Shown: piece by piece, positions 8,201 to 31,089 of the stretch | How the letters are laid out: the number at the start of each line of letters is the position of its first letter | Position numbering within the stretch: position 1 is the stretch's first letter | Source of the DNA: Gammaproteobacteria bacterium | Lineage (GTDB): Bacteria; Pseudomonadota; Gammaproteobacteria; Arenicellales; Poriferihabitantaceae | Direction of reading: 5' to 3' | NCBI GenBank assembly: GCA_011523765.1 | Contig: WTGA01000026.1 | Span: 6,353 to 38,870, forward strand | DNA: 32,518 bases | Made by a program: the position numbers and the translations under genes | Notes under the pieces: generated by a model | What the model saw: the letters and a program-made list of their open reading frames with translations, nothing else | Told to the model about the DNA's origin: nothing | Databases searched by the model: none

Positions 8201-10443
8201 TCGGCGTCGAAGAAGACGGCGTCCCCCTCGACCTCGGGAGTGAAACACGCTTCCGTCGCCCCGTCCGTCTCTTCGGCCACCAAACCCCTTATCTCCGCAA
8301 GGGCGGCGTTCTCCGCAGTGTCTATGGCGCTCAAGGCGGCGCTCCTCGCCTGCCCCACGGCGGTGACGGATTGCCCCTGCTGCGAGACAACCTCGCCCAC
8401 GGCGGCATCCCCCGCCTCCTCGATGTCACCGTCACCGTGATCCGTCCCCGCCAAATCCGTGCCTCCGGTAAAGGTCTTTCCCGCTACGTCTATATCAATC
8501 AAAGCCGTGTGCATGTTGTCGTCGATGTCCGTGATGGCGAACCTCTGCGCAGCAGTAATCTGCAAGATGGAGGAGGGCAACACCCCCGTGGCGGTGGGTG
8601 GGGTGGCCTGCGCTTTGTCTCTGATCGCCGACACGGAGGAGGGCACGGTATCCAGGGTGTCGTCCTCCGTGTCGGTGTCGTCGTAGATCGCCTTGTAAGC
8701 CTTCCTCGCCTCGTCCCTCGCTTCCTCGGCCTCGTCCCTCGCTTCCTCGGCCTTCATCACAGACGCAGATACGTTTTCCACCTTGGCCGCCTCGACCCGT
8801 ATCGCCCTCACTGCGTCGGGCAGCACCCCCGTGATTGCGGCGGGCAGCGTGGAGGGGAAGGGGTCGGGGATGCCCTCGGGCGCTCCCTGTCTCGTGTCGT
8901 CGTAAACGGTGTCCGTGATCCTCCCCACCTGCTTGTCCCCCTCGTCCGTGACCCTCTTCACCTGCGCGTTTCCGGCGGAGGGGAGGGTTCCCGGATTGAC
9001 CACGGTCGTTCCGTCCGTCTTCGTCCCTCCGACAATATCCGTGGCGGCGTCCTTGACCCGGTTGACCTGCGTGTTCCCGGCCGCTGTGACCTTCGTCACC
9101 TCCCCCGCCGTGGTCGACGTAATACCGGCTATCGCCGACTCCGTGTCGTCATGGAATTTCTTGGTCGCCTTGTAGAACTCGTTCGCCGCCACAAGCAGAC
9201 CCCCCGCTCCGGACGTGATGCGTCCGCTGATGGCTGCGGCTTTCTGTTCGGCGGTCAGGTCGGCGGAGTCCTTGCTCCCCGATGGACCGTTGAGCAGCAC
9301 CTCGGCCGTCTGTGCGGTTATCCTCACGGCAGCGTCCGCCGCATCGGGATCGTACATGGCGTCGAGCAGGAGGTTGAACGCCGCCGTCCGGTTGGCGACC
9401 GCTTGAGTCACCTGCTCGGATATGTCCGTCCCCGTCTCCACGCTCGCCAGATAGCTGCGCGTACGCCCCATCCTCACCACCGACTTGCCCGCAGCATTGG
9501 TGTAGATCAGGACGAACACGTGGGCGCTGTACTGCTCCTGTCCGGACGACGGTTTCGTGGCGTCGAACGTCCAGTCCCCGTGCGTCCCTCCCGTGGGGGG
9601 AAAATACCTGTGTTGCTCGAAGTCCCACCAGCCGTGCTGCGCGTCCCCGTAGGTCTCCCCCGACGTGGCGGTGACGGTTTCCTTCGTCTGCATGGGAAGC
9701 TGTACATCGTAGGACGGCAGATCCCCGTCGGGCACGGGGGAGTCGGTACCCACGACGAACTCCTTCTCGTCCACGCCCGCGGCGGCGGAGTTGGAGTTCT
9801 GGAAGATGAGATAGTTAAGTCCCTCGGGTCGGGCGGGGATGGTCTTGGTGGAGCCGTCGAACCGCTTGAGGACGATATTCGCCCTGTCGGGGTTGCTTAC
9901 GTCGTAGAACGCCCCCATGTTTCCCAGTATCCTGTTGATCACGGTCTGTATGTTGTCGGAGTCGGTCGGCAGGGAGTTGTCCGCCCCACGCCCCACGTCG
10001 GCGCCCACCTGCGTCCGCAGGTCCTTCAGTTTCTCCTTCTCGGCATCGACCGTCGTCTCCAGCCTGTCCCCGTCCCCCCGTACGTCCTGGATCGCCCTGC
10101 CCTGCTTGGTGAGCTGCACGTCCACCCTTTGCATCTTTTCGGACACGTCGGTGAACGAGTCGCTCGTCCCCAGCGACATGTCGTACTCCACGGCGGTCTC
10201 CCTGCGGAAGGTGTAGGTCCCCGCCACGGGAACGGTCACCTTCCACAACCCTCCGGTATCCGTCGGAGGGGTGAAAGCCGACTCCGTGAGAGGAACCACG
10301 TCACCGTCGGAATCCGTCACGATGAACTCCGTCCACGCCCTCGCATGGAGGATCTGCTGGTTGTCGTTCCTGAGGGGCACCACCTGGTTCGCATTTTCGG
10401 TGGTGATGGTCAGGGTGTTGCCGTTCAATATGGATACTGTCAT
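3349..10443 (-). CDS. Giant tail fibre / receptor-binding protein, 2364 aa
   Basis: This last gene of the morphogenesis block starts at 10443, overlapping the upstream stop by ATGA, with GGGGGAGGA in front. Residues 1-110 form a beta-rich head that probably binds the tail, followed by helix (EKMQRVDVQLTKQGRAIQDV). Residues about 330-760 are a helical, Ala-rich stalk with short repeats (AGNTQVNRV/AGNAQVKRV, EEARDEAEEARDEA). Residues about 765-1685 hold roughly five diverged beta-sandwich modules. Two coiled-coil segments containing ARLDAL (near 1743 and 2091) each introduce a related C-terminal module ending in an LG...YR or LG...HR motif. Length and layout fit a trimeric fibre. No chaperone, peptidase or depolymerase motif is visible. 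Calling it the host-recognition protein rests on place, size and architecture, not on a recognised binding domain. Confidence 0.8.
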   Translation of the reverse strand: MTVSILNGNTLTITTENANQVVPLRNDNQQILHARAWTEFIVTDSDGDVVPLTESAFTPPTDTGGLWKVTVPVAGTYTFRRETAVEYDMSLGTSDSFTDVSEKMQRVDVQLTKQGRAIQDVRGDGDRLETTVDAEKEKLKDLRTQVGADVGRGADNSLPTDSDNIQTVINRILGNMGAFYDVSNPDRANIVLKRFDGSTKTIPARPEGLNYLIFQNSNSAAAGVDEKEFVVGTDSPVPDGDLPSYDVQLPMQTKETVTATSGETYGDAQHGWWDFEQHRYFPPTGGTHGDWTFDATKPSSGQEQYSAHVFVLIYTNAAGKSVVRMGRTRSYLASVETGTDISEQVTQAVANRTAAFNLLLDAMYDPDAADAAVRITAQTAEVLLNGPSGSKDSADLTAEQKAAAISGRITSGAGGLLVAANEFYKATKKFHDDTESAIAGITSTTAGEVTKVTAAGNTQVNRVKDAATDIVGGTKTDGTTVVNPGTLPSAGNAQVKRVTDEGDKQVGRITDTVYDDTRQGAPEGIPDPFPSTLPAAITGVLPDAVRAIRVEAAKVENVSASVMKAEEARDEAEEARDEARKAYKAIYDDTDTEDDTLDTVPSSVSAIRDKAQATPPTATGVLPSSILQITAAQRFAITDIDDNMHTALIDIDVAGKTFTGGTDLAGTDHGDGDIEEAGDAAVGEVVSQQGQSVTAVGQARSAALSAIDTAENAALAEIRGLVAEETDGATEACFTPEVEGDAVFFDADADLTEREEEVTPDPVVIGLGGAVYSSGIQTTLPATTGSGGFRSRQLTFPDLTLADTGGAFSITNNIITFKGGSTKKKIRIILTGLTFNHSSAGSYTVVPQINFRDGSTDARLSRTVFKPQLPDSGGRQINLDLSSSTFKTEVTLDAKSTDVTMRIYVLAASTSGVPENHVRFASYQVDLLEKPLETFLGPFSENFIDYTPEPFKVPKVTGVKYKSLAIAPETSLTRQGNWSLRTFNYDSEYTRDVGFLPFDADGLLINAISSRSSSGKPIKASSGVVANFLPAETEVDMTIRFDVRYTASAATTVTMALALYDDAEGEVVEYMQPQTLSFAAETNALLGTSLTFNIPKRTLKNRQWYVLVRDNPSTLTVLSLTVGVNATSPLSLPANEVCIDIPRAKKEVIGFQEAAGEFVDPYHISEKFNVPIPLTAFGTGNSQNWNTLKRFTLIAKRAFNTLLIPGRPFITSYSGTLNFSTSNFSGNNGLTDIEIAVEFTHYVGKDKDKVFTHTRKIRRTSLDKQETYNINLAPLTPAPSVVNVGSMVRLDNGNNYTLTEEDLANPIDFSAQLTVDNIGPNSVRYTPLAGSIFQACFLQLSDNVSILDIGKQPLLRYFDSQPTQEQIDELKLFRHVEVEGHIHRVELERRTLADNRDQGAQNSGIEPYVVGSTPFFRQIVGIREDYDGSAITLTALNNRITTKGNPVIIRVTLENLTTASNVDFTTTVQILDINNTTVYAQRANVTVKEDDTSDIEIETEIPANKTFRVVFDRITPARNVRSVGGIRIAAFTEGSVKEATRTAELENPTSTNSGRTTTTPARTVSDVWRLPDSDNPLYKIENNIFKPKVAGNLTVTLPDLVNSTNADITGVELVIGAYTSNGVLSSGIVQRNITIKEDNTSDMTGTQAVVAGSEYFFRTQKGADQLDTEIPSAAKIEISMTGTAFIPSQKLLVPYGSDASVQNILKGLKAANVEEEGILTNHETRIEEIEEQIGDISSDEDSIDARLDALEQEPPPEIPGNVQVSHDRPPRDGGGVRHLNIWVDETEEENDPPDQWNYDDPGYTAYSKASPPALNALKPDNSRYPSHLYEYRAIHRSSGNIGDRVTILPAATTINGRRYWGVSAGQAMGNPLPDFGTIKANVRGLGLAAYFSYENDDGTFTHEIWIQDRLVLDTRLGWFSEDWVRADGKLPADPAAMNFYGARPTGSGQHPKNRPPTTSATDPHIAYSSANPQTFMPDHTGVKPSLRVPVGDAHRVLQSNGGAAFLRQNETRTILGMTYRIYRANTSQNDWVGQLVADAEEVHVGATIDSDNRYHVFAGCAEYTIPGHIAPSNYALFRKQVLTERKQRELEARLDALAIAIAPSVTEHLPSIPDPELPSSPDSLVLTQTGAAKNPGGIIYASGVYDKTSPDGTPENPKPTSRTDANFEPTDKNRIRMMDAILSDDGANEYHVRGVIALANVFGNNLLGSLPHNMSDAVAAIFTVHDGIGSYHLNAWIKELLRLRNVSNLQITSGGTPYATLTEAQRADTRLHFWADRNIDGDTQDVVRFSSEMNSQTQDFLGVEHRLFRTRVGDDSFIRPLQYGNNNNREILQGFELYPNSNSLHTIGWGNRGMDSRAYRRRRG
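8708..8749 (-). repeat. 21-base tandem repeat in the fibre stalk
   Basis: Two perfect in-frame copies of a 21-base unit encode EEARDEA twice. They extend an Ala/Glu/Arg coiled coil and look like a slippage duplication. Confidence 0.8.
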
Positions 10444-13400
10444 TCTTCCTCCCCGGGGGAGTAATATCCCCTCTTGAGTTCGTCCATGCCGGGAGAGTAG
10501 CGCATCACCGCCGATGCCATCTGTCCCGCCATACGGTAAAAGTTATTCATGATTGTAACACGGGCGTGGCGTTCCGCCATCTCCCGTATCTCGTCGTCGG
10601 TTATGTCGGAGAGGTCGGAGTTGAGCCGTCTCGCCTCCGTCCCCTGCAATATCATCGCATTGGCGAACAGGCGGAAGGAGTCCCTCACCATGGGGGTCTG
10701 GTCGGATACGTCGCCCGTCCCCAGCCTGTGTAGCACGTCGGACAGACGGGTGGAGGAGTCCGCCCCGCCGTAATACATCCGGATCGTGTCCTTCATCCCC
10801 CTCCAGGACAGGAACCGGCGGGCGTTCTCCATCACCTCCGCCGCATGCCGATCCTCGCTCTCCATCCCCTCCACCGTTTGACGGGTGTCGTAGTGCAATG
10901 CGTACCTGTCCAGAACCTTTTCTATCGCGTCCCAATCCATGCTCATCATCGTGATCTTGTCGTTGTACTCCCTCGGGGACAACGGATAACGGTACGTACG
11001 CCACGAAGACGACCTCATGGGACTGTTGATCTTGACCGGCTTGAACCCGAACAACGTACGGAACATCCTCCCCGGTATCCTCTTGTTCCCCACCAGCACG
11101 TCGTCGCTCTTCAACGCTCCCGACGCCAGCATGAAATCCCTCGTCTCCGTGCTCTTGGGGGTCTCCCCCCTCTTCAACGGGTTGATAATGAATATGAGCC
11201 TGTCCATGAAATCCACCGAAGCGCGCGTGCCGTCCCTGTCCTCCCCCGCGCTCATCGGAACGCCCAGCATGTCCCTCCACGGCTCCACCGTGTCCAGCCC
11301 CGCGACCGCTTCCGCAAACTCCTTGACCGCTTCCACCGTTCCCGCCATGGCCGGTTCCGAACGGGGCAGTCTCGCCCCCCTGACCCCCGTGGCGACCCTC
11401 TCGACGAATCCCTTGCCCGGACTGGTCATGCTCGACGCCACCTCCTTGGCGTAGTTCTCGACGATACCCGGACTGCCCGAAAGCATCCCGTACAGCACCG
11501 TGGTCATCCCCCTCTCGAAGAACGAATCGTCCGATATGTGACGGCTCAACTCCAGAAACGCCTTGGACGCCCTCCCCCCCGGACTCTCCGCCGACATGTC
11601 CTCGCCGAGTCCCAGGGCGTTCATCGCCTCGCCCGTCCCCGGAGTCAACTCCAATATGTTATGGAAACGGTACATCGCCCCCATTCCTATCCCCACCGGT
11701 CCCAGGGCGTCCCAACGGAAGAACCTGCCTCCAATCTCCACTCCGCTGCGTCCGCCCCACTTCCTGAACGAATCCTCGTCGGTGGACGAATCGATCACCC
11801 TGAATCCGGGAACATGCCTGTCCGCCGCCACGGTGGAAAGGAACACCCCCGTACCGAAGATACGCCTGGACGACTTCATCGCTTGTAGAGGGTTCCTCCG
11901 TATCGCTCCCACGGGGGTGAAATGATCCACCGCCATCATCATGTTCGCCCATACCCTCGGAAACGGCATCAACACCGTACCCGTAAGCTGCATGCCCGTG
12001 TTGGAACTGTAATGGAACGTCCTCGTGGCGTGCTTGTATATCTTGAGTCCCAACGAACCGAACATCCCCGCATCGGGATAGTCCTCCGGATTCGCCCTCA
12101 ACAGGTTGGCGTCCGCCCTGAAATCCACCTCCGACATGTAATTGGAGATGAAGTTGGGGTTGTCCCTCAGCACCTTTTCGGGATTCTTTTTAGCCTCCTC
12201 CAGCACCCTGGCCAGACGGGCGACCGACCTCTGCTTGTCCTTGAGGGATACGACCTGTCCGGGACGCGCCGCGGGGAGGGCTGTGTCCATTATAATCCGT
12301 TCCATCGCACCCACCTGCGCTATCCCCTCGTGGAACGCCGTAAGCAACTCGTCCGCCATGTGCAGGGGCATGCGGGCGGTTCCCGTTGCAATGTTGAGTC
12401 CCTTCTCCCACCATTGATCCGATACGTACGCCCTTTGATAACCGTACTTGTCATAACGACGGGGCAGCTTCGTACCCAGCCATATCCCTTTGAGTTCCTT
12501 GCGTCCTTCCTTCCCCGCCATGTCCTTCATACGGGCGGCGACATTTCCCAAAGTCCTCCTCGGAAACGACCTTAACAGTTCCCGCGATACCCCCGCCCAT
12601 GAACGCCTGCCCCTCGCAGCCGCCGTGATGTTCCTTCCGTAATGGTACGCCGTCTCGGATACCATCGAAAACAGTCCCGAAACCCCCGCTATCGCCAAAG
12701 CCATGTTACTCAGCATGTTGTCGTAATGCGCCCTCATGGCGTACTGCCCCGTAACGGACAGCCAACCGTCCTTCTCCGTCAGCAGCTTGTCATATAACTT
12801 GCTCCACGCCTTCTGCGTCTTTTTCAGAACCGCCTCGTCCGACGGGGACAGTCCTCCCGGAAGGAATCTCTTGGCGTAGGTACGCTCCAGGGCGTGTTCC
12901 AGTTCCGACGCCTGCGACAGCGTCGCTCCCAGCGCCTCGTGCGCCCTGACCTTGACCCCTTGACGCAATAACTGCGCCTCCGCCATCAACGTAGTGTACT
13001 CCTTCGCCGCCTTCAACGCCCGGTCAAGAGGCGCGTCGAACGTCTTGAACTTGGAATCGAATATCTTTTCCGTAAGGAATTTCCTGCGCCGTAGCAGTTC
13101 CTGTACCGTTTCGTCCAGCACCGGAGAGGCGGCTTCCACCCCCGTCCTGCCGGCTTCCACTTTCATCTCGTCCAGCGTCCCGTGGAGATGCGCCATGTAC
13201 CGCTTCAATCCGTCAACCGAAGTGTCCTTCTCCACCGCACCCCACGCCCTGTTCATGGCCAAGGCATGCCCCTTGTCCCCCTTGGGTACGGGATACTCGT
13301 CGAATTTCACCATCCCCTTGACCGTGTTTCTCAGCATCTGCGTACGGGTAACGAACTGGTTGACACGGGCGGGGTCGATGTCCAGCGCCTCCCTCGCCTT

Positions 13401-14573
13401 CTTCATCTTCCCCAGGGCTTCCAGCAAGGCTTGATCGGTCGATGCCCTGTCCGCCAGACCCTTCGTGTACGCTTCAAGCTGCTCGTCCGTGGTCGCCGCC
13501 ATGATACGGGCTTCCTCGTCCCCCACGGCGGTCATCTTCCTCGGATCGTATCCAAGCCCCTCCGCCTGTTCCCTCAGTATGTTCCGCCCGGCCTCGTCGG
13601 TTCCGTCGGCGAGCTTGATCATGATCGCACCCGTCTCGTCCATGCCCTTGACGCCTTTATACGCAGCCCTGCCTCCCTTGGCGATGAGTTTCCCCACAGC
13701 CCCTCCCGTGAGTATGTCCACGGAGTCGGCGAGCCATATGCGGAAGCCCTTTTCCCATCGGGACGCCTCGTCGATGTCGTCGCCTATGAATCCTTCCCAT
13801 CCGAGCAGGTCGAATACGACGGAATCGTACTTCTCCAGCTTGTCCGGGTCGTCGTAGGAGGACACGGTGGAATGGAGCAGGGAGACTCCTCCGCCTACGG
13901 CGAGGGCGGCGTAAACGGGCATCCCCGCCAGCCCTATCCCCACGCCCGCTCCTATGGGCAGCAGGAACGCCCCCATCTCGATCAGTTCGGAGTCCTGCAG
14001 GGAACGTATCTGTTCCATCTCCTCCATGTTGGTTCCCAGGATGGAGTTCATCGCCCTTATACCGTTGTTGGCGCCCTTCTTCACCATGCCCTCGACATGG
14101 TCGAAAAAGTCCGGTTCCTCTACGTTTCTCGGGGCGAGGTTGCGCACCAGCGGCTTGTAATCGTCCACCCTCGGACGGGGGTTCGCTGCGTAGGAAGCCT
14201 CCCTGGAGTCCGCTTCGGCGGAGGATACCACCCTGGCGAACATCTCGTCCGCTCCGGGAGGCAGCTTCCCCTCCTCGTCCACGTTGGATTCAAAAAACGA
14301 TTGGAGTTCTCCGGGAAGGTCGTCCCCTTCCTCTACATCGTCGGGGGAGCCGCCACCGGAAGTCCCTTCATCGCCTTCTTCGCTTCCCGATACATCTTCC
14401 CCCCCTGATATATCGACAACAGAATCACCATCCTCGCCAAGGTCGGGGTCTTCTGACAAGTCCTCCCCAATCTCTTCCTCCCCCACTTCATCGTCGAGCA
14501 GACCCGGTTTTGATGGGTTTTCCGAGGACTCTTCTTTTCGGTTTCGCCCCTTCTTCGATTTTTCTAATGGCAT
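10440..14573 (-). CDS. Large internal virion (ejection) protein, T7 gp16 position, 1377 aa
   Basis: Place and length match the largest internal core protein of T7-like phages, which is ejected into the cell envelope to conduct DNA. The first 110 residues are very acidic and probably disordered. Residues about 200-234 (GAFLLPIGAGVGIGLAGMPV and onwards) and about 620-645 (MALAIAGVSGLFSMV) are hydrophobic and Gly-rich, suited to membrane insertion. The rest is long, mostly helical sequence. The N-terminal lytic transglycosylase domain of T7 gp16 is not seen. ATG 14573 follows GAGGGAACGGG but overlaps the 99-residue gene by 86 bases, so a later start is possible. The assignment is by synteny and features, not recognised homology. 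Confidence 0.6.
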   Translation of the reverse strand: MPLEKSKKGRNRKEESSENPSKPGLLDDEVGEEEIGEDLSEDPDLGEDGDSVVDISGGEDVSGSEEGDEGTSGGGSPDDVEEGDDLPGELQSFFESNVDEEGKLPPGADEMFARVVSSAEADSREASYAANPRPRVDDYKPLVRNLAPRNVEEPDFFDHVEGMVKKGANNGIRAMNSILGTNMEEMEQIRSLQDSELIEMGAFLLPIGAGVGIGLAGMPVYAALAVGGGVSLLHSTVSSYDDPDKLEKYDSVVFDLLGWEGFIGDDIDEASRWEKGFRIWLADSVDILTGGAVGKLIAKGGRAAYKGVKGMDETGAIMIKLADGTDEAGRNILREQAEGLGYDPRKMTAVGDEEARIMAATTDEQLEAYTKGLADRASTDQALLEALGKMKKAREALDIDPARVNQFVTRTQMLRNTVKGMVKFDEYPVPKGDKGHALAMNRAWGAVEKDTSVDGLKRYMAHLHGTLDEMKVEAGRTGVEAASPVLDETVQELLRRRKFLTEKIFDSKFKTFDAPLDRALKAAKEYTTLMAEAQLLRQGVKVRAHEALGATLSQASELEHALERTYAKRFLPGGLSPSDEAVLKKTQKAWSKLYDKLLTEKDGWLSVTGQYAMRAHYDNMLSNMALAIAGVSGLFSMVSETAYHYGRNITAAARGRRSWAGVSRELLRSFPRRTLGNVAARMKDMAGKEGRKELKGIWLGTKLPRRYDKYGYQRAYVSDQWWEKGLNIATGTARMPLHMADELLTAFHEGIAQVGAMERIIMDTALPAARPGQVVSLKDKQRSVARLARVLEEAKKNPEKVLRDNPNFISNYMSEVDFRADANLLRANPEDYPDAGMFGSLGLKIYKHATRTFHYSSNTGMQLTGTVLMPFPRVWANMMMAVDHFTPVGAIRRNPLQAMKSSRRIFGTGVFLSTVAADRHVPGFRVIDSSTDEDSFRKWGGRSGVEIGGRFFRWDALGPVGIGMGAMYRFHNILELTPGTGEAMNALGLGEDMSAESPGGRASKAFLELSRHISDDSFFERGMTTVLYGMLSGSPGIVENYAKEVASSMTSPGKGFVERVATGVRGARLPRSEPAMAGTVEAVKEFAEAVAGLDTVEPWRDMLGVPMSAGEDRDGTRASVDFMDRLIFIINPLKRGETPKSTETRDFMLASGALKSDDVLVGNKRIPGRMFRTLFGFKPVKINSPMRSSSWRTYRYPLSPREYNDKITMMSMDWDAIEKVLDRYALHYDTRQTVEGMESEDRHAAEVMENARRFLSWRGMKDTIRMYYGGADSSTRLSDVLHRLGTGDVSDQTPMVRDSFRLFANAMILQGTEARRLNSDLSDITDDEIREMAERHARVTIMNNFYRMAGQMASAVMRYSPGMDELKRGYYSPGEEE

Positions 14574-19900: not shown

Positions 19901-20165
19901 AAGCGTCGTTTACTCCCCACTCGAACTCGTACAAGGGATCGTAGATGAAGAAATAACTGTTTCCGTTCCACTCGAACGGTATGACCCTGTCCGTGGGAAG
20001 AACCTCTATCGGGAGGTCTTCCGTGGCTGGACGGTTGCGGAGGTACTCCCCCCGTTCATGGATGAGGTTCTCGGCGTGGAGAAAGTCGTTGTCTTCGGAA
20101 GCCCGGTACTGCCCCCTCGGTCCCCTCATGCTCCCGTCCAGGGGAGTGGTGACTATGCGTCCCAT
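16947..20165 (-). CDS. Tail tubular protein B (T7 gp12-like), 1072 aa
   Basis: The N-terminus carries the typical gp12 start: a short ligand-binding strand, then AENLIHERGEYLRNRPATED (residues 31-50), which matches the 'EN...G..RRPG' signature of tubular protein B. The rest is beta-rich, as expected for the nozzle's propeller fold. At 1072 residues it is longer than T7 gp12 (794), so it probably has inserted domains. The gene follows tubular protein A with a one-base overlap (TGATG) and precedes the gp14-like gene by ATGA. The product should form the lower part of the short tail, below the adaptor ring, and carry the fibres. Confidence 0.75.
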   Translation of the reverse strand: MGRIVTTPLDGSMRGPRGQYRASEDNDFLHAENLIHERGEYLRNRPATEDLPIEVLPTDRVIPFEWNGNSYFFIYDPLYEFEWGVNDAYAEPSKWTGSSDSGMYDQKRIGSRYDFVRLLGETGIWSGNSPSQQVLNATAWILAASAPAEAITGTITRNGLGLWLWREVVQQNRHSYDLYYLLSLAMGELRPFHVGVPYSTGREADRLTGSTIRRLQCRWSMGHFWHRFLVVNRSGKVVGNGCTRAMPGTYRPGKAVNDPGVLAQATYDIRNFTYSSRRLPVIGVNNASVRDLAIFSSDIRRYLADVPSREGLFDDIRNPLPSYELIEGVNNFVAVDRSGRMPPLVLEGTPDGSQFVMQELAVKFKGTGQRLHYFPSILSSRELGRYDLWMKPYNPFNRLFEDDKGVGFPSPAEFTSRPGTALLTTANSTRLDNILKEIDFRAWNNNGTQYNKFFRQYAVQRTVGDFPPMDRSSLTLPKDTEAVNSLLQASERKREFPVATAFEWSTYGNCILRYSTEKTATEDFTRAMGGASIEATPYFEQFPVVEYENLSLRHRASTDTAQFLPPPKDTDEDKRLWDKRALWRDMAKKGEVARNIKIPSWYYANREAYLYIASYVLEAGTETTFTEIETICDLEGIYAVDDRNINPVSNCIDVVVVKEKVTQRRPGVAMLPLRFSDDNIDSALKTAFADAVVSQPFLGEKEVSPELYYIDFIGPPVVGLSPDYYYSSVTADSNRYLFAGARGGRNILDVTSTTSDVIKGPEQGVFSFSTIERIVLPARDNPPSLIPYGYTQPLTDEGGIEVYWVTAIGQDTIIGTSKGRIVMDGLGLESLQNAVLDPSDIPSPVPPLVLQDLTYQVMLDRKHIYALERSRERERNTWRSVTGSISDFLFDDDIKSMTALADTGRIVFVTEKGRTYAGLLQPSGDVRWTELSFGSPVREMARITDEIFFTLEDRTVVLRINDDTPIEQGAELSLTLKHPASYVMAGANKGMSSFDTAKYKTGHLLGSFKADDATPEEVRIGTYHRDGTESTSRSITETEFGHVNMHSIRDGLKFSFKARKIEVDSIHMEVTE

Positions 20166-20869
20166 CAGCGTCCCGTCCGCATGCGGGAAAGGATCGACGG
20201 CTCCTTGAGCCTGTGTCCCTTGCGGTTCTCCACCGCCGCCTGTGTCTCCATTTTTTTCTTGTCCCGCCTGTGCATGGCTATGTACGGGACGCTCACCTCG
20301 GCATCAGTCGAAAGACCCTGCTCCAGCGCCACCATCAACTCCTTCTTGACGTACTCCCTGAACTGGATGCTCCACGAGGATATGTCGGCGTTCACCAGCC
20401 CCCTTTCTCCGTCGTCCTCGGGAGGACGGGGGATGTACAGGGCGAATATCTCCGAACAATCCGAACGGAACTCGTTCCCCACTATCCTCCCCAGCTTGCC
20501 GTACTCCGCATCGTATCCCGTCAACGGGTAGGTGAACGGCTGGTAATGGTCGCTGAAGTTGTAGGAGTACGGGTAGGACGGACGGCTCCTGTCGAGATGA
20601 TCGTAGAACTCGAAGATGTACAGGTAGTCGGACGGCAGGGCGAATCTGTTCCGGTACTCCCTGTAGATGTCGTCGGTGCCTCCGGCTGGTTCGAGTGTCA
20701 CCGTCTTCGTCAGAAAAGGCCAGGGGTACAGCCCCATGGAAGTCCTGACTATGTCGGCGTACAGATCGAACGCCGCCAGAGCGTTCTTCGACGTATCATC
20801 GGTGGAGGTGACCCGCCCGTTGCGCGTGCGCAGCATGGCGGGATTGATTAACTCGGAGACGACCCCCAT
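20165..20869 (-). CDS. Tail tubular protein A / head-tail adaptor (T7 gp11-like), 234 aa
   Basis: The sequence shows the adaptor signature: an N-terminal helix, then YPWPFLTKTVTL (residues 48-59), Tyr-rich text, and FALPSDYLYIFEFYD (76-90), matching the 'PW.Fa...LP.D.l.i' pattern of gp11 and P22 gp4-like proteins. Size is slightly above T7 gp11 (196). A 12-mer of such proteins forms the ring between portal and nozzle. The start at 20869 follows TAAGGTG, nine bases after the second capsid gene, and the stop is coupled to tubular protein B. Confidence 0.75.
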   Translation of the reverse strand: MGVVSELINPAMLRTRNGRVTSTDDTSKNALAAFDLYADIVRTSMGLYPWPFLTKTVTLEPAGGTDDIYREYRNRFALPSDYLYIFEFYDHLDRSRPSYPYSYNFSDHYQPFTYPLTGYDAEYGKLGRIVGNEFRSDCSEIFALYIPRPPEDDGERGLVNADISSWSIQFREYVKKELMVALEQGLSTDAEVSVPYIAMHRRDKKKMETQAAVENRKGHRLKEPSILSRMRTGR

Positions 20870-20878
20870 CCATACACC

Positions 20879-22306
20879 TTACGCCACCGCTACAGCGGTC
20901 ATGGAGTCCAAATCACGGGGAGTGAAATACAATTCCCGTACCAGAGGATCCCATATCCGTATCCCTTCCAAGTGATACTCCTTGTAGAGAAACTTCTCGT
21001 AACTCTGCGTGAAGTCGTCCGTGGATTTCAGCCTCACGTTCATGTTGGTGGGGGACAGGAACTGGAAGCCCTTGGGGTCGAAAACTATCGCCCGGTACAT
21101 CCCGTTAGCGTCGATGTAACTGGAGGCGGTGACATCCGTATTGGCGGTCGCCGTGTTGAATCCGCCCGAATTGGTCGCCAGAGACTGGTCGGCGGTTCCA
21201 AGCAGACTCAACGAGGACGCGATGTGCTTCGATCCCGTGAAAGTGAGATGGTTCGCTATGAGTTCGCCCGCCGTGTTACCTGCACGCTTGTTGTTTGATC
21301 CGATGGTCTGGGACACCTTGCCTGAACTGTCGATGGTGATGTCTCCGTTCCGGGTAGCTCCGTTCCATGTGAAGTCCCTCCGCAGGGTCTCCGACCCGAA
21401 AATCTCGTCGGGTACCGTAAGGAACTGGTAATTCTGGAACTCGTGAATCTTCCCTTTTCCGAGTATGATGCTCGAACCCATGTAGTCCCGGTTACCGATC
21501 TTGTCCTGGTTGATGTCCTTCCACATGGCGTACACGGTGTTGGTGGTGAAGATGGTGCATTTGCCCTTCAACGCCTCTTCCGATCCCGTGTTCCTGTTGA
21601 TGGACGATTCCGTTTCCGAGCCGAAGGTGCTGTTCTGGAGATCGGCGGTCAGGTAGAAGAACCTGCTCACCTCCAACGGACAGGACACCCTGGTATTGGA
21701 CGCATTGGCCTTTCCAAGGAGACAGTTACGGTAACGGTCGGGAAGGGTCACTTCCTTTCCCCGTCCCGCCTCGGCTCCGAATCCCGCGATTCTGGGGTTC
21801 TCGATGACGGGAGCCGTCAACAGTTCCTTGAACATGGAGAGGGTTTCCGTCTGGAACCACTCATTGAGCCGTTCCGTATATTTGTTGACTAGGAAATCGT
21901 GATTGTGACCCGTCACCTGCGCATCGGCGCGGGGTACGGACACGTTGAGCACCCGTCCCACTCCGTCGCTGGAACGCCGTCTCCATCCCAACTGTACGGG
22001 ATTGGGAGTCGCCCTGTTACGACGGTAACGGTGATCGACCGTATTGGTGTTTCCGCTGGTGAAGTCGGGATCGCCCCCCTTCAACTTGTAAACCTTCTTC
22101 TCGTCCGAACCCGGTGAATCCGACAGTCCCGCAAGCGCGATGGCTTCCGCGTCGATTTTCCCGAGAAAATCCATGGTCTGGTTCGCCTTGGTGTTGGGTC
22201 TTACGTTGAAATATTTTTTCAACACGTTCATCGAGACCGCGAAGTCTTTTTGAACCCTCCCGAAAGCCACCTGGGCTACATTTTCAAAAGTGTGGTTCAA
22301 TGGCAT
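20879..22306 (-). CDS. Second major-capsid-type protein (paralogue), 475 aa
   Basis: It is clearly related to the 576-residue capsid protein just upstream. Both have HTFEN.../LTFEN... with following helix (residues 5-33), WRRRSS (108-113), RADAQVTG (126-133), ENPRIAGFG (169-177), NMNVRLK...DF (421-432) and IWDPLVRELYFTPRD (451-465). ATG 22306 follows AAAGGAG, which overlaps the stop of the first capsid gene, so both should be made in quantity from one mRNA. In T4 a similar pair (gp23/gp24) forms hexamers and pentamers. Here a penton, a minor shell component or an alternative subunit is possible. The HK97 fold itself is inferred from position and the paired homology. Confidence 0.75.
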   Translation of the reverse strand: MPLNHTFENVAQVAFGRVQKDFAVSMNVLKKYFNVRPNTKANQTMDFLGKIDAEAIALAGLSDSPGSDEKKVYKLKGGDPDFTSGNTNTVDHRYRRNRATPNPVQLGWRRRSSDGVGRVLNVSVPRADAQVTGHNHDFLVNKYTERLNEWFQTETLSMFKELLTAPVIENPRIAGFGAEAGRGKEVTLPDRYRNCLLGKANASNTRVSCPLEVSRFFYLTADLQNSTFGSETESSINRNTGSEEALKGKCTIFTTNTVYAMWKDINQDKIGNRDYMGSSIILGKGKIHEFQNYQFLTVPDEIFGSETLRRDFTWNGATRNGDITIDSSGKVSQTIGSNNKRAGNTAGELIANHLTFTGSKHIASSLSLLGTADQSLATNSGGFNTATANTDVTASSYIDANGMYRAIVFDPKGFQFLSPTNMNVRLKSTDDFTQSYEKFLYKEYHLEGIRIWDPLVRELYFTPRDLDSMTAVAVA

Positions 22307-22317
22307 AAGTTTCTCCT

Positions 22318-24048
22318 TTAGGCGGTCGTGTAGGTACCTATCTTGTCCCCCGACCTGGTAAAAAACACCTGCCTGACCAGAGGGTCGTATAAACGCAAGG
22401 TGTCAAGATAAATTTCAGAATAAAGTCTATAATTATGGGAATTTTGGAAGTCCTCCGCAATCTTGAACTTGACGTTCATCTCCTTGGGAAGACCGTAATG
22501 CATCGCCCTGCGATCCACTATGTATGCCATGGAGAGGTTGCTTGCGTCGGCAAACCGTTCGTTGGTGTGGAGTAACGCATTACCCGACACTCCGTTGTAG
22601 TTCTGCGCTCCCGCGGAGGCGTTCTTGGTGGTATCGGAACGGAAGTCCTTCGCCTTGTCCTTCACGGTATCGACCGTGTTGGGGTCCTGGAAGTTCATGT
22701 TCTCGGGATACAGGTCTCCGGCCTGGATTCTTACAATCTCCACCGTCTTGCCCCGGAATACGACCTGCCCCGTGCTTTGTGCCAGATTGAATGCCAGACT
22801 GGTGAAAGTGAAGTCGTCCACGACGGTGTTCCCTTTCCTGACCGTGACTGCGGCGCTCGACGAGTCGGATACCACGGACACCCTCCATGTACTGGAAGAC
22901 CCCCCCGTCCCTGTCAGTCCCACTCCTTCACCGCCCGGAACCAACGCCCTTACGCGGAACCGTTTCCTTCCGGAAGTATTGGACGCCTTCTGTACGAAGT
23001 CGATCCGTCCCCTTTCCGCTCCCGAACGGGGGACGGCGGACATGACCGGGTTGGCTGCATGCTGCCATGTAAGGGGATCGGGAAACGAGGTCCCGAACCG
23101 GTTGGAAGCCAGCGCGTCCGGTACCGAAACGAACATGTATTTGTCGTAACGCCTTACATAGGCGTGTCCCAGAAAATTTTTCCTGTCATGGAACAGCTCG
23201 GAACGGCTCAATACGTCCCTGTTTTCCTCCTTGAACCGGGCGAACGCCGTGTGTCCCATGACCACGATTCGTTCCGCTTCAGCCGCCGCGTCCCCGAGAC
23301 GGGGGTTGCTGCCGTCGTAAACGTGCGTGTCGGAAGGGTTTCCCGTCTCCAAATCTATGGGGGATTGGGATCGGTCGGCGGGGTTAAGGTATCCCGCATC
23401 CCTGCAATTCGCCATCTCGGAGTCTATGTAATCCAGACCGTCGATGGTGAACGGGGCTTCGTACGTTCCCTTCTTGTTCTGTGCGGCGGTGAATTTCCCC
23501 ACCATCATGTGACGGAAGGAATCCAGGAACTTGACCTCGAATCCTTTTCCCTCGTCTCCGGAACCGCCTCCGCTGCCCAGTCCTCCCATGACGGGGTTTT
23601 CCCTCATCGGCATGGTGAATCCGTTTATCATCATCGCCAGCATGTCGTAATTGTAGGCGTCCACCATCCTGTCCTTGAGAATGTCCACCAGCTTCTCGAA
23701 CGAAATGCCTGTGAGTTGCGCCTGCGTACGGTCGCAGGTGATTCCCACCTCGCGTCCCTGCCGGGCGGATTGGCTGGAGCGTCTGCGCCATACGGGTTCG
23801 TCCGTGTCGGGAGTGGGTCTGTTCCTGCCGGCGTAGTTCTCGCCTGTGGTACGGGACGAACCCGTTCCCAGCCTGCCCAAGGGCACCTCTTTCGATGAGA
23901 TGGGACCCAGCATGGATTTCATGTCCGTACCGCCACTGAACGGCTCGGGCTTCCAGAACTTTTCCAACGTATTCGTGGAGACCGTGATCTCCTTCTGCGC
24001 CTTGGTCTGCGCAGTTCTTACAGCATTTTCAAAGGTCAAATCGGTCAT
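22318..24048 (-). CDS. Major capsid protein, 576 aa
   Basis: It follows the scaffold gene with an 11-base gap and a good site (AGAGGTGG), the usual place of the major capsid gene. The N-terminal helix (FENAVRTAQTKAQKEITVS), WRRRSS (88-92), RTQAQLTGISFEKL (107-120) and the C-terminal YDPLVRQVFFTRSGD (554-568) are shared with the paralogue next door. Relative to that paralogue it has an extra beta-rich block at about residues 362-470 (RFRVRALVPGGEG, then STWRVSVVSDSSSAAVTV), perhaps a surface domain. Which of the two is more abundant in the particle is not visible. The WRRR...D...Q...G block loosely recalls the Phage_capsid_3 (DUF4043) group, but I am not sure of that. Confidence 0.8.
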   Translation of the reverse strand: MTDLTFENAVRTAQTKAQKEITVSTNTLEKFWKPEPFSGGTDMKSMLGPISSKEVPLGRLGTGSSRTTGENYAGRNRPTPDTDEPVWRRRSSQSARQGREVGITCDRTQAQLTGISFEKLVDILKDRMVDAYNYDMLAMMINGFTMPMRENPVMGGLGSGGGSGDEGKGFEVKFLDSFRHMMVGKFTAAQNKKGTYEAPFTIDGLDYIDSEMANCRDAGYLNPADRSQSPIDLETGNPSDTHVYDGSNPRLGDAAAEAERIVVMGHTAFARFKEENRDVLSRSELFHDRKNFLGHAYVRRYDKYMFVSVPDALASNRFGTSFPDPLTWQHAANPVMSAVPRSGAERGRIDFVQKASNTSGRKRFRVRALVPGGEGVGLTGTGGSSSTWRVSVVSDSSSAAVTVRKGNTVVDDFTFTSLAFNLAQSTGQVVFRGKTVEIVRIQAGDLYPENMNFQDPNTVDTVKDKAKDFRSDTTKNASAGAQNYNGVSGNALLHTNERFADASNLSMAYIVDRRAMHYGLPKEMNVKFKIAEDFQNSHNYRLYSEIYLDTLRLYDPLVRQVFFTRSGDKIGTYTTA

Positions 24049-24058
24049 AATCCACCTC

Positions 24059-25264
24059 TTATCCGTCGACCAGACCCCGTTTGTTGATCTCGTCCAGGAC
24101 CTTGTTTAGTTTTATTGTAGCAGATTTTAATTTCTTCTGCATATCTTTTCTCGATCCGTCATTTTTATACGGCATGTACTTCTCCCGGCGTTCTATCAGG
24201 GCGTCCCTCATCTTCTCCAGTCCGGAGGGGGTGAGGCTCTGGATGCTTACCGCCGCCTGTTTCAGCTGCAGGCGTTCGGGGGCTGCACTGTCGTTCAATG
24301 CCCTGTTTATCATGCGGATGAAGGCGGAGGAACTCTTGATTTTTTCACCATGGTATTCCACGTCAAACTCGGGGCCGTACTTCTTTATGAAGGCGATAGC
24401 GTCCTTCATCACCGCACGGGTGTCCTCCCCGTATTCCTTCTCGATGGCGGCTCGTTCTTGAGCGATATAGTCATTCTTCTCCTGTATCTGTGAATCATGG
24501 TAATTCCGACGATAATCATCGTATTTCTCTATCATCGCGTACGCCTGTTCCTCCGAGAACATGTTGTCGTGGAACATCTTCCTCAAATCATCCCGGTCGT
24601 CCTTGAACTCTTCACCGGCCAGGTAGGTCTCGGCGAACAGGTCGTCCTTGTACCCCTCCGCTTCCTCGGGCACGTTGAACCCCTCCTTGAGAAACGCCCT
24701 CCATTCCTCCTCGTTTTCCGTGGAGGGAACCACCAGCCGGTCGGGGTCCTGGTTCTCCCTCAGACCCTTCATGTACGAGTACATGTCCCCCATGTCGAAT
24801 ATGCCGTTCTCCACCAGCATGGACGAATCTATGCGGTTCTTGCCCACCATCGCGGCGAACTGGTCGTCGGGCACCCTCCCCTCGGCCTGGGCGGCTTCCA
24901 GCCATCCCTCGTAATCGGAACTCTGATAGACCGCCATGGCGATCTCCTCGTCGGTTATCTTGTGGGGATCGACCTCGCCGGAGGCTTCCTCCTCCTCGTC
25001 CTGCTCGTCCCTCAGATCGAGCAGTCCTTCAAGCTCGGGGTCCCTTTCCTCTTCTTCGTCGGCATCCTCCTCTTCGGTTTCCTCTTCGGGTTCTTCCTCT
25101 TCGGATTCCTCCAGATCATCCCGTTCCTCGTCGGTGTAACTGTCGTCGGTGTAGTCGTCGTCCCCCAGAATGGAGTCGATCAGATCGTCCTCCGACGGCT
25201 CGGAGGAATCTTCTTCGTCGTCCACTTCTTCGTCGTTCACTTCTTCTTCGATTTCATCGGACAT
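24059..25264 (-). CDS. Head scaffolding protein, 401 aa
   Basis: The first 120 residues are extremely acidic (runs of Asp and Glu, for example ESEEEEPEEETEEEDADEEE). Then comes a region typical of scaffolds (NEEEWRAFLKEGFNVPEEAE, then FKDDRDDLRKMFHDNMFSEE) in which a 'VP' segment is followed by helices ending in a gLs.eQA-like motif. The C-terminus is a basic helix (KDMQKKLKSATIKLNKVLDE), the usual coat-binding end. It lies between portal and capsid genes, behind AAAGGAAGG at ATG 25264. The protein would fill the procapsid and be released before packaging. No protease domain is seen. Confidence 0.8.
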   Translation of the reverse strand: MSDEIEEEVNDEEVDDEEDSSEPSEDDLIDSILGDDDYTDDSYTDEERDDLEESEEEEPEEETEEEDADEEEERDPELEGLLDLRDEQDEEEEASGEVDPHKITDEEIAMAVYQSSDYEGWLEAAQAEGRVPDDQFAAMVGKNRIDSSMLVENGIFDMGDMYSYMKGLRENQDPDRLVVPSTENEEEWRAFLKEGFNVPEEAEGYKDDLFAETYLAGEEFKDDRDDLRKMFHDNMFSEEQAYAMIEKYDDYRRNYHDSQIQEKNDYIAQERAAIEKEYGEDTRAVMKDAIAFIKKYGPEFDVEYHGEKIKSSSAFIRMINRALNDSAAPERLQLKQAAVSIQSLTPSGLEKMRDALIERREKYMPYKNDGSRKDMQKKLKSATIKLNKVLDEINKRGLVDG

Positions 25265-25289: not shown

Positions 25290-25496
25290 TCAATCACGAT
25301 TATCGTTCAAATGTTCCAAAATGAAAAGCCCTATGCTACGCCTTCCCATGAAATGCTCCATGTCCTGTCCTTTAACGGGGCGTTGCATCCATACCTGCGA
25401 ACATTGGATCAGCGTGTCGAGTACTATCTTTCCTTGGGGGGTGCATCCTATCACCTTCAACGCCTTACGGAACTCCCGTTCCCGCGTCGGGGACAC
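25290..25496 (-). CDS. Bbp19-like small phage protein, 68 aa
   Basis: The block FRKALKVIGCTPQGKIVLDTL followed by GRRSIGLFILEHL resembles the Bbp19 family of podophages, where 'F..TP.G..VL..L' is followed by 'GRRSV...L', and which is often found beside the portal gene. I choose GTG 25496 because AAGGAGG lies 11 bases before it and the overlap with portal is then 32 bases. An ATG at 25640 would need 176 bases of overlap and adds Ser/Pro-rich sequence that looks like shadow. The function of the family is unknown to me. Its place between portal and scaffold suggests a role in head assembly. Confidence 0.65.
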   Translation of the reverse strand: MSPTREREFRKALKVIGCTPQGKIVLDTLIQCSQVWMQRPVKGQDMEHFMGRRSIGLFILEHLNDNRD

Positions 25497-27225
25497 TTCC
25501 TTGTCCGCCTCCTTCGGTCGCTCCCGGTACCGCTCCAAGTGCCTGCGTACTTGCTCCAAGCGCGTTAGCCGCAGCGGTGTCGTCGGCGATCCGCTGCCTT
25601 CCGAGTCTGAGCTTTTCCCTGGTGAGCCTGTCGGCTTCATTCCTCAATACTCCCGTCTCCCCCGCTTTCATCATAACGGACGAGAAATAATTAGGCAAGT
25701 CCGCCACGTCCAGCATCGGATTGTCCTCCGCCAGTACCTCGGCGAATCCTCCTATCATGTTGGCCATCCTCATAATCTTGTTGAACATGCTGTTCTTGTT
25801 GGCGAACGCTATCTCGCTGGTGTAGGTCGCCTTGAGCACCTCCTCGCCCAACGGGTCGTCCTTCCCGATCTCCTGATGGATGAGATAGTTGATACTCAGC
25901 ACCAGCGGATTGAGGTCGTCCGCCTGATCCTGCACCACGAACGCCGTCAGCTTGCGGTAATCGTCCGTGTCCCTCGACTGCACCTCCGCCTTGGTCATGC
26001 GCGACTTGTTCAGCAGCTCGAACACGTCCAGATAAAAGACCCTGTCCAGCATCATCTGGAGATACTGGGAGTACTCGATGGGAGCGCGTAAATCCGCCCC
26101 CAGAGACAACGGCTTGGGTTCCTGCGTCCCCGCCTCGATGAAATTTATTCCGTCCGGCGACAGGTCCAGCGCGAGCCGCTGGTTGTCGTCGGTCATCGCC
26201 CAGGCCGGGTCGAACGTGCGCTCGAACGCCTTGACCGTCTTCTCAAGCCCGTGACTCAACGCCATGAGCAACGGCAGGGACTTCTCCGCCTGTCCCCTCG
26301 CAAAATGCATCACCTTGAACGGAGGCGACGCCTTGTTCACCATGATGGGGCGGTAGTCCTTGATTTCCACGGACATCACCCTGTCGATCGTGAACCATAC
26401 GTCCGCCCATGCGGACGCTCCCGGATACATGTTCTCGGTCTTGTCGCGCGGGAGAAGCGCCCTGATCATCTTCATGCGCTCCTTCTCCTCCAATATGCTC
26501 CTACGCAGGTGGTCGTCCAGATGCTGTCGCAAGACGGGCACCGGCACGTTCAACCTGTAATACTTCCTCTTCTCGGCGGCGAACACCCCCGCCATGCTCC
26601 GTTCCTTCCAGTAGTCCGGCTGTCCGAACGGCTCGGGAAACCGTCTCCTTGCGTTGAACTCGTTGAGTTCCTCGCACACCAGATGGATGTCGGTGCTCTT
26701 GCCGTCCGACGTACCCACCCCCAGCATGTCGTACGGGTAGTACTGGAGCTTCGCCACCATCAACGGGTCCGGGTCCACCGTCTTCGCCGCAAGCCCTATC
26801 TTGAGCTTCTCCCTGGACGCCTGTCCCATGATGGAGAAATTCTCCGGATCCTGGATGATGCTGTGGATGTGTTTCGTCCGTTCCGTCAACGCCTTGATGA
26901 CGTCCACCAACGGAGCTTTTTTCTTCTTCTTAACCCTCAAATGACGCAACGGATGGAGTCCGAAAAATTCCTCGGTGGGGGAGAGGTGGTACGAAAGAAC
27001 CCCCGACAACGCCCTTTCCAGACTGTTCTCGGGCGAGGGATTGTACATGTTGCACTCCACCTCGTCGTTGTGTCCGTATTTTCCCCCGTGTCCCGGAGTG
27101 TAGAACGACGTGATGAGGTCGTACATCGCCTTGTTCCCGTCGTCGTTGCACAGCATGCACTTCTTGAACTCGATGAACGGCTCCCTCAACAGGGGTTCCA
27201 GCATGGCTGCGTCTTGCGGTTTCAT
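25465..27225 (-). CDS. Portal (head-tail connector) protein, 586 aa
   Basis: Length, place and motifs fit the T7 gp8-like connector family. The second half has the recognisable order: PPFKVMHFARGQAEKSLPLL (portal-core helix), then SLGADLRAPIEYSQYLQMML, then RMTKAEVQSRDTDDYRKL at about residues 410-427. This last block matches the 'MTAtEv..R...l..L' motif of the family. A dodecamer of this protein forms the vertex through which DNA is packaged and leaves. The C-terminus is a Gly/Ala-rich tail (GAVPGATEGGGQGSVPDAG). It starts directly after the stop of the small basic gene (TAAATG), so translation is coupled, with only a weak ribosome site (GGCGGA). Confidence 0.85.
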   Translation of the reverse strand: MKPQDAAMLEPLLREPFIEFKKCMLCNDDGNKAMYDLITSFYTPGHGGKYGHNDEVECNMYNPSPENSLERALSGVLSYHLSPTEEFFGLHPLRHLRVKKKKKAPLVDVIKALTERTKHIHSIIQDPENFSIMGQASREKLKIGLAAKTVDPDPLMVAKLQYYPYDMLGVGTSDGKSTDIHLVCEELNEFNARRRFPEPFGQPDYWKERSMAGVFAAEKRKYYRLNVPVPVLRQHLDDHLRRSILEEKERMKMIRALLPRDKTENMYPGASAWADVWFTIDRVMSVEIKDYRPIMVNKASPPFKVMHFARGQAEKSLPLLMALSHGLEKTVKAFERTFDPAWAMTDDNQRLALDLSPDGINFIEAGTQEPKPLSLGADLRAPIEYSQYLQMMLDRVFYLDVFELLNKSRMTKAEVQSRDTDDYRKLTAFVVQDQADDLNPLVLSINYLIHQEIGKDDPLGEEVLKATYTSEIAFANKNSMFNKIMRMANMIGGFAEVLAEDNPMLDVADLPNYFSSVMMKAGETGVLRNEADRLTREKLRLGRQRIADDTAAANALGASTQALGAVPGATEGGGQGSVPDAGTGVP

Positions 27226-27453
27226 TTAACGGTATCCGCCGAACCTCTGCCGGTTGGTGCGCTTGTTCATCTGCATCTGTCCTTCCGCCGACATGGAAGC
27301 GGGGGTGGTGTCCTGGAACGGTTTCTCCCTCAATCCCGCGTCGAGCAGTCCCGCCATCTTGATCCGATCCTGTCCCGCCGTCGGAGGGGTGTACACCCCC
27401 ATGCTCAACCTGCGGGAAGCCCTCTTCTTGCCGTAACCTATGTTTCCGGGCAT
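27226..27453 (-). CDS. Small basic protein, 75 aa
   Basis: Starts at ATG 27453 behind AAAGGAG, after the terminator, and ends immediately before the portal start. The sequence begins MPGNIGYGKKRASRRLSMGV and ends MNKRTNRQRFGGYR; both ends are basic, and the middle is neutral with low predicted order. It is too small for an enzyme. Together with the basic genes between terS and terL it suggests DNA- or RNA-binding or a head-filling role, but no family is recognised. Confidence 0.65.
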   Translation of the reverse strand: MPGNIGYGKKRASRRLSMGVYTPPTAGQDRIKMAGLLDAGLREKPFQDTTPASMSAEGQMQMNKRTNRQRFGGYR

Positions 27454-27535: not shown

Positions 27536-29011
27536 CTATCTCCTATCGTACCACACCGAACCCCTTCCGCCAACCAGATTCCCCTTGTTCACCATCATCG
27601 GACTCCACGGCTTGTACCGGGCGCCCTTCTCAGTCACCCTGACGCCCCCCGACCGCTTGTAGGTGAAGTCCCTCTTGATACGACCCCCGTCGATGTTCAG
27701 ACCGTTGTACAGCGTCCTCAGCGCGTCCGCGGCGTGGTCAACCCCCCTCGACTTGTCTATGGCGTCCATATGCGCTCCCGTCAGGGGGTCTTTTTTCCGA
27801 CTGAACTCCCCCAGCATACGCAGCCCCCTGTGGGCGTCGGTTCCCGTAGCGTCTTTCTCGGGAAACCGCAGCAAATGGAGGTTGTCGTTGATACGGGAGA
27901 TGTCCGTCATCAACTCCACCGTCTTCTTCTGCGGCTTGACGAGGCACTCGGGAAACACCTCCCTGAACCTCTGCTTCGGCGTGTCCTTCCTGTGCGTCCC
28001 CAGCGTCCTGTTGCCGCCGTCATGGGGCAGGAAAAACACATCCGGGACGAACCCGTCGTCGTGCATGTCCCTCCTCAAGTCCATCAGGTTGTCGTATCCC
28101 GTATAAAAATCCTGTATGTTGACCGTATGGTTCAGGCAATCCGCCTGCGCCGTCCATGCGGCGAAACCCTCGCCCACTCCTATGTCAACTCCGACAACAT
28201 TGGTCAGGGAAGGATCGTATTCGCTCATGTAGAACCACGGCTCCCTCTTCATCTCCTCGATTTTATGATGGAAGAACGTTCCCGGTATCTTCGCCGTGAA
28301 GTCCAGCTCGTACTCCCTTTCAAACGCCCCGTCGGGGTTGTCCTTCCTCAATTCCTCTATCTCCTCCGGCGTGAAAACATTCGTATGCCACACGGGGAAC
28401 AACCTCACGGGGTGTCCGTTCCTGATGGCGTTCACCGTCATGTTGTACAGGTGATCCTGCCCCTTGGCCGTCCCGAATGCATTGAATACTCCCCTGGAAT
28501 CCGCCAAAGTAGGCATTATCGACCTGTATATGGCTTCCTCGCTCGCATCCTGCGCCTCATCGACATTCACCTCCCTGTACTTCATCCCCCTGATACGGTC
28601 ATGGTTCTTCGACGCCATCAACTCCACCGTGATCTGATCCCCCAGCGACGGACGGGGGATCGTCGCCTTCAAAAGACTGTTGTTGAACTTCACCCCCTCG
28701 AACTCGGACAGGAAATCCTTGTAATAATCCCAGATAATCCCCCTCGCCTGCAACTTCGTCGGGGCCATGAACGCTATCGACGGATAACTCGAATCGACAT
28801 CCGCCCTCAGCTTGAATATCTTCTCCTCCGCCAGATACTGCCTGATCCTCACCGTGTCCTTCATGGCGCATCCCTGGCTTTTCCCTCCCCTCCGATGTAC
28901 CAGCAGGATCTTCATCTTGATCTTCTTTTCCTCGTCGAAATACGTAGTATTTTCGTCAAAGAATGGTATCTGAGGGATTCTAAGTTTAAAGTCTTTCTTA
29001 CGTCCGGACAC
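27536..29011 (-). CDS. terL: Terminase large subunit
   Basis: The packaging motor and nuclease. The ATPase part shows Walker A HRRGGKS (residues 39-45), Walker B VNVDEAQD (148-155) and the coupling motif FGTAKG (179-184). The RNase H-like nuclease part shows three acidic sites: VVGVDIG (Asp276), LPHDGG (Asp331) and GVDHAADALR (Asp425). At 491 residues it is of normal size. The start codon is GTG 29011, behind GGGGTGGATT, and overlaps the upstream mini-gene by 14 bases. Its product acts with TerS on concatemeric DNA at the portal. Unusually, four small genes separate it from terS. A strong terminator follows. Confidence 0.93.
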   Translation of the reverse strand: MSGRKKDFKLRIPQIPFFDENTTYFDEEKKIKMKILLVHRRGGKSQGCAMKDTVRIRQYLAEEKIFKLRADVDSSYPSIAFMAPTKLQARGIIWDYYKDFLSEFEGVKFNNSLLKATIPRPSLGDQITVELMASKNHDRIRGMKYREVNVDEAQDASEEAIYRSIMPTLADSRGVFNAFGTAKGQDHLYNMTVNAIRNGHPVRLFPVWHTNVFTPEEIEELRKDNPDGAFEREYELDFTAKIPGTFFHHKIEEMKREPWFYMSEYDPSLTNVVGVDIGVGEGFAAWTAQADCLNHTVNIQDFYTGYDNLMDLRRDMHDDGFVPDVFFLPHDGGNRTLGTHRKDTPKQRFREVFPECLVKPQKKTVELMTDISRINDNLHLLRFPEKDATGTDAHRGLRMLGEFSRKKDPLTGAHMDAIDKSRGVDHAADALRTLYNGLNIDGGRIKRDFTYKRSGGVRVTEKGARYKPWSPMMVNKGNLVGGRGSVWYDRR

Positions 29012-30861: not shown

Positions 30862-31089
30862 TCAGCTCCGGTAGCGGTTGAGGTCGTAGTTCCGCTTGCG
30901 CTTCCTCATCCTGTCATCGACGGATCGTACCGCCGCCTTCGTCCCCCTCACGGAAGACCCCGCCAGCGATGAACGCGCCCCGACCAGTTCCGATCTCGTA
31001 CGCGCCTTGGACGACTTCCTCACCAGGGCGAGTCCGTCCCGTACGGATGCGAAGCGTTTGTTCCGCTTGTGCGGACTGTTTATCGGCAT
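30862..31089 (-). CDS. Small basic protein, 75 aa
   Basis: First gene after the strong promoter at 31108-31136, with ribosome site AAGGAG before ATG 31089 and a leader of about 12 bases. The protein is rich in Arg, Lys and Ser (MPINSPHKRNKRFASVRDGL at the start; DDRMRKRKRNYDLNRYRS at the end) and predicted partly helical. It is followed after two bases by the H1-like gene. The sequence has no recognised family. Composition points to nucleic-acid binding. Confidence 0.7.
   Translation of the reverse strand: MPINSPHKRNKRFASVRDGLALVRKSSKARTRSELVGARSSLAGSSVRGTKAAVRSVDDRMRKRKRNYDLNRYRS

Follow-up and report, generated by a model that had tools for sequence, protein, structure and literature searches.

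Two tandem genes occupy the capsid position of a T7-like head module

In most tailed phages hexons and pentons are made from one protein, phage T4 with its vertex paralogue gp24 being the textbook exception. The locus described here raises the question of whether a T7-like phage could also build its head from two paralogous capsid proteins. The window analysed (32,518 nucleotides) spans bases 6353-38870 of a 46,612-base contig from a draft genome of 3.09 Mb in 177 contigs; positions given below are those of the window unless the contig is named. A sequence-only reading had described two duplicated major capsid genes lying behind a scaffold gene in a podovirus-type head module.

Both genes were found intact on the minus strand exactly where that reading had placed them, at 22318..24048 for the upstream member of the pair (paralogue A, 576 aa) and at 20879..22306 for the downstream member (paralogue B, 475 aa). 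The same strand carries a terminase large subunit (27536..29011, minus; phrog_2, E 5.6e-23), with Pelagibacter HTVC-type phages among its closest matches (about 25% identity), and a portal or head-tail connector (25465..27225, minus; PF12236, E 1.3e-15; phrog_332, E 4.6e-19). An acidic 401-aa protein (24059..25264, minus) is the probable scaffold, judging from its place between the portal and capsid genes and its acidic N-terminus; it gave no family match in Pfam or PHROG and no phage relative. Directly downstream of B lies a T7 gp11-like tail tubular protein A (20165..20869, minus; phrog_394, E 1.2e-11). The pair fills the slot between the scaffold and the tail tubular protein, with no other gene there, and the PF12236 portal together with the gp11-like protein identifies the module as T7-like, in agreement with the podovirus-type head that had been proposed. 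A weak T7 gp14-like match (PF24072, under cut-off) was also present on the contig, as were replication-type ORFs outside the window, these judged by eye.

Along the whole contig, ORFs and family matches are phage-like, and no exact terminal repeat of at least 20 bases was detected on it. Since the family and order relatives of the source genome are without the portal and capsid genes, a separate phage contig in the bin would fit better than a shared prophage. Several other features of this contig deserve mention. Two very large proteins of 2364 and 1377 aa are encoded downstream of the tail genes (3349-10443 and 10440-14573, minus); they gave no Pfam and no convincing PHROG match and may serve in the tail, in ejection or in adsorption. 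Near the packaging genes there are two small ORFs (27226-27453 and 30862-31089, minus), each encoding a basic protein of 75 aa and preceded by a good ribosome site. To the right of the window, four paralogous genes stand in tandem (contig 43184-45970, plus), encoding proteins of about 156-179 aa; with a mutual identity of 42-58%, they form a second tandem paralogue family of the same phage. At the window's left edge, a short-period tandem repeat (translated LKFPQH / EVPSAPEV) is found beside an N run (contig about 5900-6660).

Gene spacing and ribosome sites suggest a shared transcript

The genes of this module are tightly packed, with gaps of 10 bp between the scaffold gene and A, 11 bp between A and B, and 9 bp between B and the tail gene, and each gene's Shine-Dalgarno sits at the stop codon of the preceding gene. 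Good ribosome sites had been described for both paralogues, and we located one for each: that of A, AGGTGG (AGAGGTGG), at 24052..24057 (minus), just past the scaffold stop codon, and that of B, AAGGAG (AAAGGAG), at 22313..22318 (minus). The latter begins within the A stop codon, a position that suggests coupled translation. On the coding strand, no terminator-like sites were found between scaffold, A and B. Given the gaps of 9-11 bp, the Shine-Dalgarno sequences at stop codons and the lack of terminator-like sites, it is likely that scaffold, A and B are carried on one transcript with coupled translation. The single mRNA proposed earlier is thus retained as apparent cotranscription, read from the sequence only.

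A and B arose by an old tandem duplication

We then compared the two proteins with each other. BLASTP aligned A and B with 91.3 bits (E 7e-24; 25% identity over 379 aligned positions) and returned a second, collinear C-terminal segment (36% identity, 70 aa, E 2e-13), while the top score of 1000 shuffles of B against A was 27.7 bits. The overall identity of about 25-28% is unevenly spread, being 31% in the N-arm, 35% over the next 94 positions, 24% in the middle and 33% at the C-terminus. Seven motifs are common to both proteins in the same order: TFEN, RNR.TP, WRRRSS, R..AQ.TG, ENP...G.G, MNV+.K..DF and DPLVR..[FY]FT. Three of them (WRRRSS, ENP...G.G and MNV+.K..DF) are as the sequence-only reading had given them. 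Two others, present in both proteins, had been worded too narrowly: R.QAQ.TG takes the true form R..AQ.TG, as B has D before AQ, and in DPLVR..FFT the FFT is found only in A, B having YFT. By the criteria of similarity and collinearity, an old tandem duplication of one gene is established, as had been claimed, and since both frames are open over their full length at 25-28% identity, both copies have been retained for a long time.

The main length differences between A and B fall at A 313-490. Aligned with A, B has gaps of 28, 14, 10 and 34 residues against residues 313-489 of A (22582..23112, minus), a segment with no counterpart in Phage_capsid_2 proteins in the diverse E-INS-i alignment. This segment is a possible inserted surface domain.

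Weak comparisons converge on a T7-like capsid

A and B both remained below threshold in searches of Pfam, PHROG, NCBIfam and the PDB. The 25-bit cut-off of Phage_capsid_2 (PF19821) was not reached, with no match to A or B at E<=1 and none genome-wide at E<=10, nor was there a Pfam match of either protein to the T7 Gp10A-like family (PF21703), on which P-SSP7 gp10, taken as a yardstick, scores 244 bits. Below these thresholds, the top PDB match of B (phmmer, 177,635 PDB sequences) was the T7-like capsid of P-SSP7, 2xd8, at a sub-threshold E of 0.14, with B 246-299 aligned to 203-258, in the A-domain block. When B was searched by tblastn against 50,697 phage records, five records passed E<=10, three of which were P-SSP7 gp10 in the same block; the PDB and tblastn matches to P-SSP7 count once, as both rest on one alignment.

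Profiles were built from 39 Phage_capsid_2 sequences and from 8 Gp10A sequences and scored on 400 contig ORFs. The Phage_capsid_2 profile ranked A first (E 0.025) and B third (E 8.3), and the Gp10A profile ranked B first (E 0.066) and A only 17th. With an earlier Phage_capsid_2 profile, one of 2000 shuffles of A outscored A, and B alone was indistinguishable from its shuffles. The A/B alignment was then compared by hhalign with a joint Gp10A and Phage_capsid_2 profile, giving a score of 31.5 (E 0.0025) over B 248-462; 40 column-shuffled controls reached at most 20.7, ten other contig proteins at most 23.3, and two reversed controls were also lower. Against Phage_capsid_2 the hhalign scores were 26.7 and 25.0 (shuffles at most 22.5), and against the Gp10A profile alone the shuffles were not beaten. 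In the reverse direction, 1,177 ORFs of the fetched loci were ranked with the A/B profile, leaving out the loci that had been obtained with this profile or the A/B motif (L018, L019 and L012), and Phage_capsid_2 capsids came out on top; since these capsids are closely related to each other, the top matches amount to only a few independent observations. In the PDB, the Phage_capsid_2 profile recovers phage capsid proteins of solved structure.

Aligned with a diverse set by E-INS-i, the proteins correspond in order over an N-terminal helix, TP....P..RRR, an A-domain block and a C-terminal block, and A and B have a long stretch between the A-domain and C-terminal blocks that is absent from the known families. 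This alignment is an illustration rather than independent evidence, the mode having been chosen after L-INS-i misplaced the middle block. AlphaFold2 gave pLDDT values of 29 for A (two sequences) and 39 for B (19 Phage_capsid_2 rows), too low for a fold search, so that the structure prediction put forward as a check yielded no usable model. In the low-confidence B model two paired strands lead into a long helix, like an HK97 E-loop and spine, but the model carries no weight.

Taken together, these weak comparisons agree in identity and position and indicate that A and B are probably T7-like HK97 capsid proteins of the T7 gp10A / Phage_capsid_2 type. The proposed capsid nature of the duplicated gene therefore draws on convergent comparisons, all of them sub-threshold. 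The pair marks a capsid lineage missed by present family models.

The pair has no relative in the collections searched

IMG/VR contained no relative of A or B, whether the query was either protein alone, their alignment or one of two degenerate motif patterns; seven loci from this search were rejected as unrelated. No relative was found in GenBank phages or plasmids, in GTDB genomes by motif pattern, or by a search of the family, the order and samples of the phylum and the class (several hundred genomes). Two marginal matches near E 0.005 in the genome-sample search covered short stretches only. Using the portal as bait, we recovered one distant genome; its head module carries a single, different capsid gene and lacks a tandem pair. 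The suggested search for the pair in related genomes is neutral on its retention, because no relative of either gene turned up in any collection searched.

Capsid copy number was also counted in known phages. A Phage_capsid_2 capsid was found by tblastn at 72 places in 72 phage records, the Phage_capsid_2 profile gave 99 matches in the 99 loci examined, and Gp10A was found at 1321 places in 1316 phage records; these counts show the absence of close duplicates only, as a second copy as diverged as A and B would be missed. Known phages of either type appear to carry a single capsid gene. In the literature, of which our coverage was partial and is no proof of absence, we found no paralogous or duplicated capsid genes in podoviruses.

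Possible roles of the two proteins

Our tentative model, which may quite possibly be right, is that A and B descend from a single HK97-type major capsid gene, that the two copies have diverged and both been kept, and that most likely both are part of the shell with divided roles. One old tandem duplication would have given two capsid genes lying between those of the scaffold and the tail, both retained and each translated, probably from a shared transcript. The longer A, with its extra inserted region, would be the hexon subunit, and the shorter B would be a specialised subunit, most plausibly placed at the vertices as T4 gp24 is. We infer this assignment by analogy with T4, which the gene order and relative lengths fit. 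A more specific claim, which we regard as possible but rather doubtful, is that a T7-like podovirus with a genome of about 46 kb or somewhat more has separate hexon and penton HK97-type proteins, from a duplication independent of T4 gp23/gp24 and in a capsid lineage without a sampled relative. If true, this would be a second, independent two-role capsid split, in a small T7-like phage, making such a split a repeatable step for which a large head is no prerequisite, and the benefit of a penton-specific subunit could then be tested in a simpler system.

It is unlikely, though deserving of consideration, that both proteins are capsid-derived while the shell is built from just one of them, probably A, and B is a minor, decoration or head-completion protein with a partial capsid fold. 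Phage_capsid_2 phages have small uncharacterised genes at B's place, between the capsid and tail tubular A genes, and the divergence of A and B to 28% identity would be consistent with such a role. However, core blocks are kept in both proteins and the N- and C-terminal segments stand at 31-35%, for which there would be less reason in a minor protein, and the middle block of B matches known capsids better than that of A does.

That A and B are mixed in the same capsomers or are interchangeable, giving heteromeric hexons or alternative heads and no hexon/penton split, seems distinctly improbable to us. Strong ribosome sites and one apparent transcript fit comparable amounts of the two proteins better than a 60:11 capsomer ratio, and codon bias marks neither gene as far stronger, but ribosome sites are poor predictors of protein amount and no precedent was found in the literature searched.

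We give very little credence to A and B being paralogous virion proteins of a non-HK97 type, with another protein serving as the phage capsid. The missing family match and usable structure model would agree with this, whereas the pair alone occupies the usual capsid slot, from scaffold to tail tubular A, and the T7-like capsid matches converge.

Finally, it is scarcely credible that either gene is a duplicate in decay or an artefact of assembly, even with the pair seen in one genome only and in a draft assembly of 177 contigs: recent decay was rejected because both full-length frames are open, at 28% identity and each with its own ribosome site, the window has no N runs, and A and B are too divergent for misassembly to have produced them.

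Comparison with known capsid systems

The two-role model can be set beside three known arrangements. In phages of the T7 gp10A type, such as the Prochlorococcus phage P-SSP7, the capsid gene is followed by those of the tail proteins gp11 and gp12, an order similar to that found here, but there is a single capsid gene instead of two. The second capsid form of T7, gp10B, arises by a frameshift on the same gene and is not a paralogue; one gene read in two forms in the T7 style was rejected for A and B, which have two separate starts and different sequences.

Phage_capsid_2 phages (Pelagibacter HTVC010P and Vibrio VP2-type podoviruses) have a portal and terminase related to those described here, and their capsids may resemble A and B in the succession of the TP....P..RRR motif, an A-domain block and a C-terminal block, a likeness that stays sub-threshold. 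They differ in having one capsid gene, of about 285-325 aa, against two here (475 and 576 aa), and their capsids are without the inserted stretch of A and B.

In T4, the genes of gp23 and gp24 are adjacent, with the longer one first. The T4 shell contains about 960 copies of gp23; the paralogous gp24, with 55 copies, sits at the vertices, and the prohead protease trims both (PMC5694885). Our scan of the head-module proteins gave no family match to a prohead protease, a result of little weight given how divergent this phage is, and PDB searches gave no similarity of gp23 or gp24 to A or B. T4 is a large myovirus, whereas the module here is T7-like and lies on a 46.6 kb contig. The likeness to gp23 and gp24 is that of two adjacent paralogous capsid-type genes in a head module, the capsid assignment here being sub-threshold, and by this analogy a two-protein shell is plausible.
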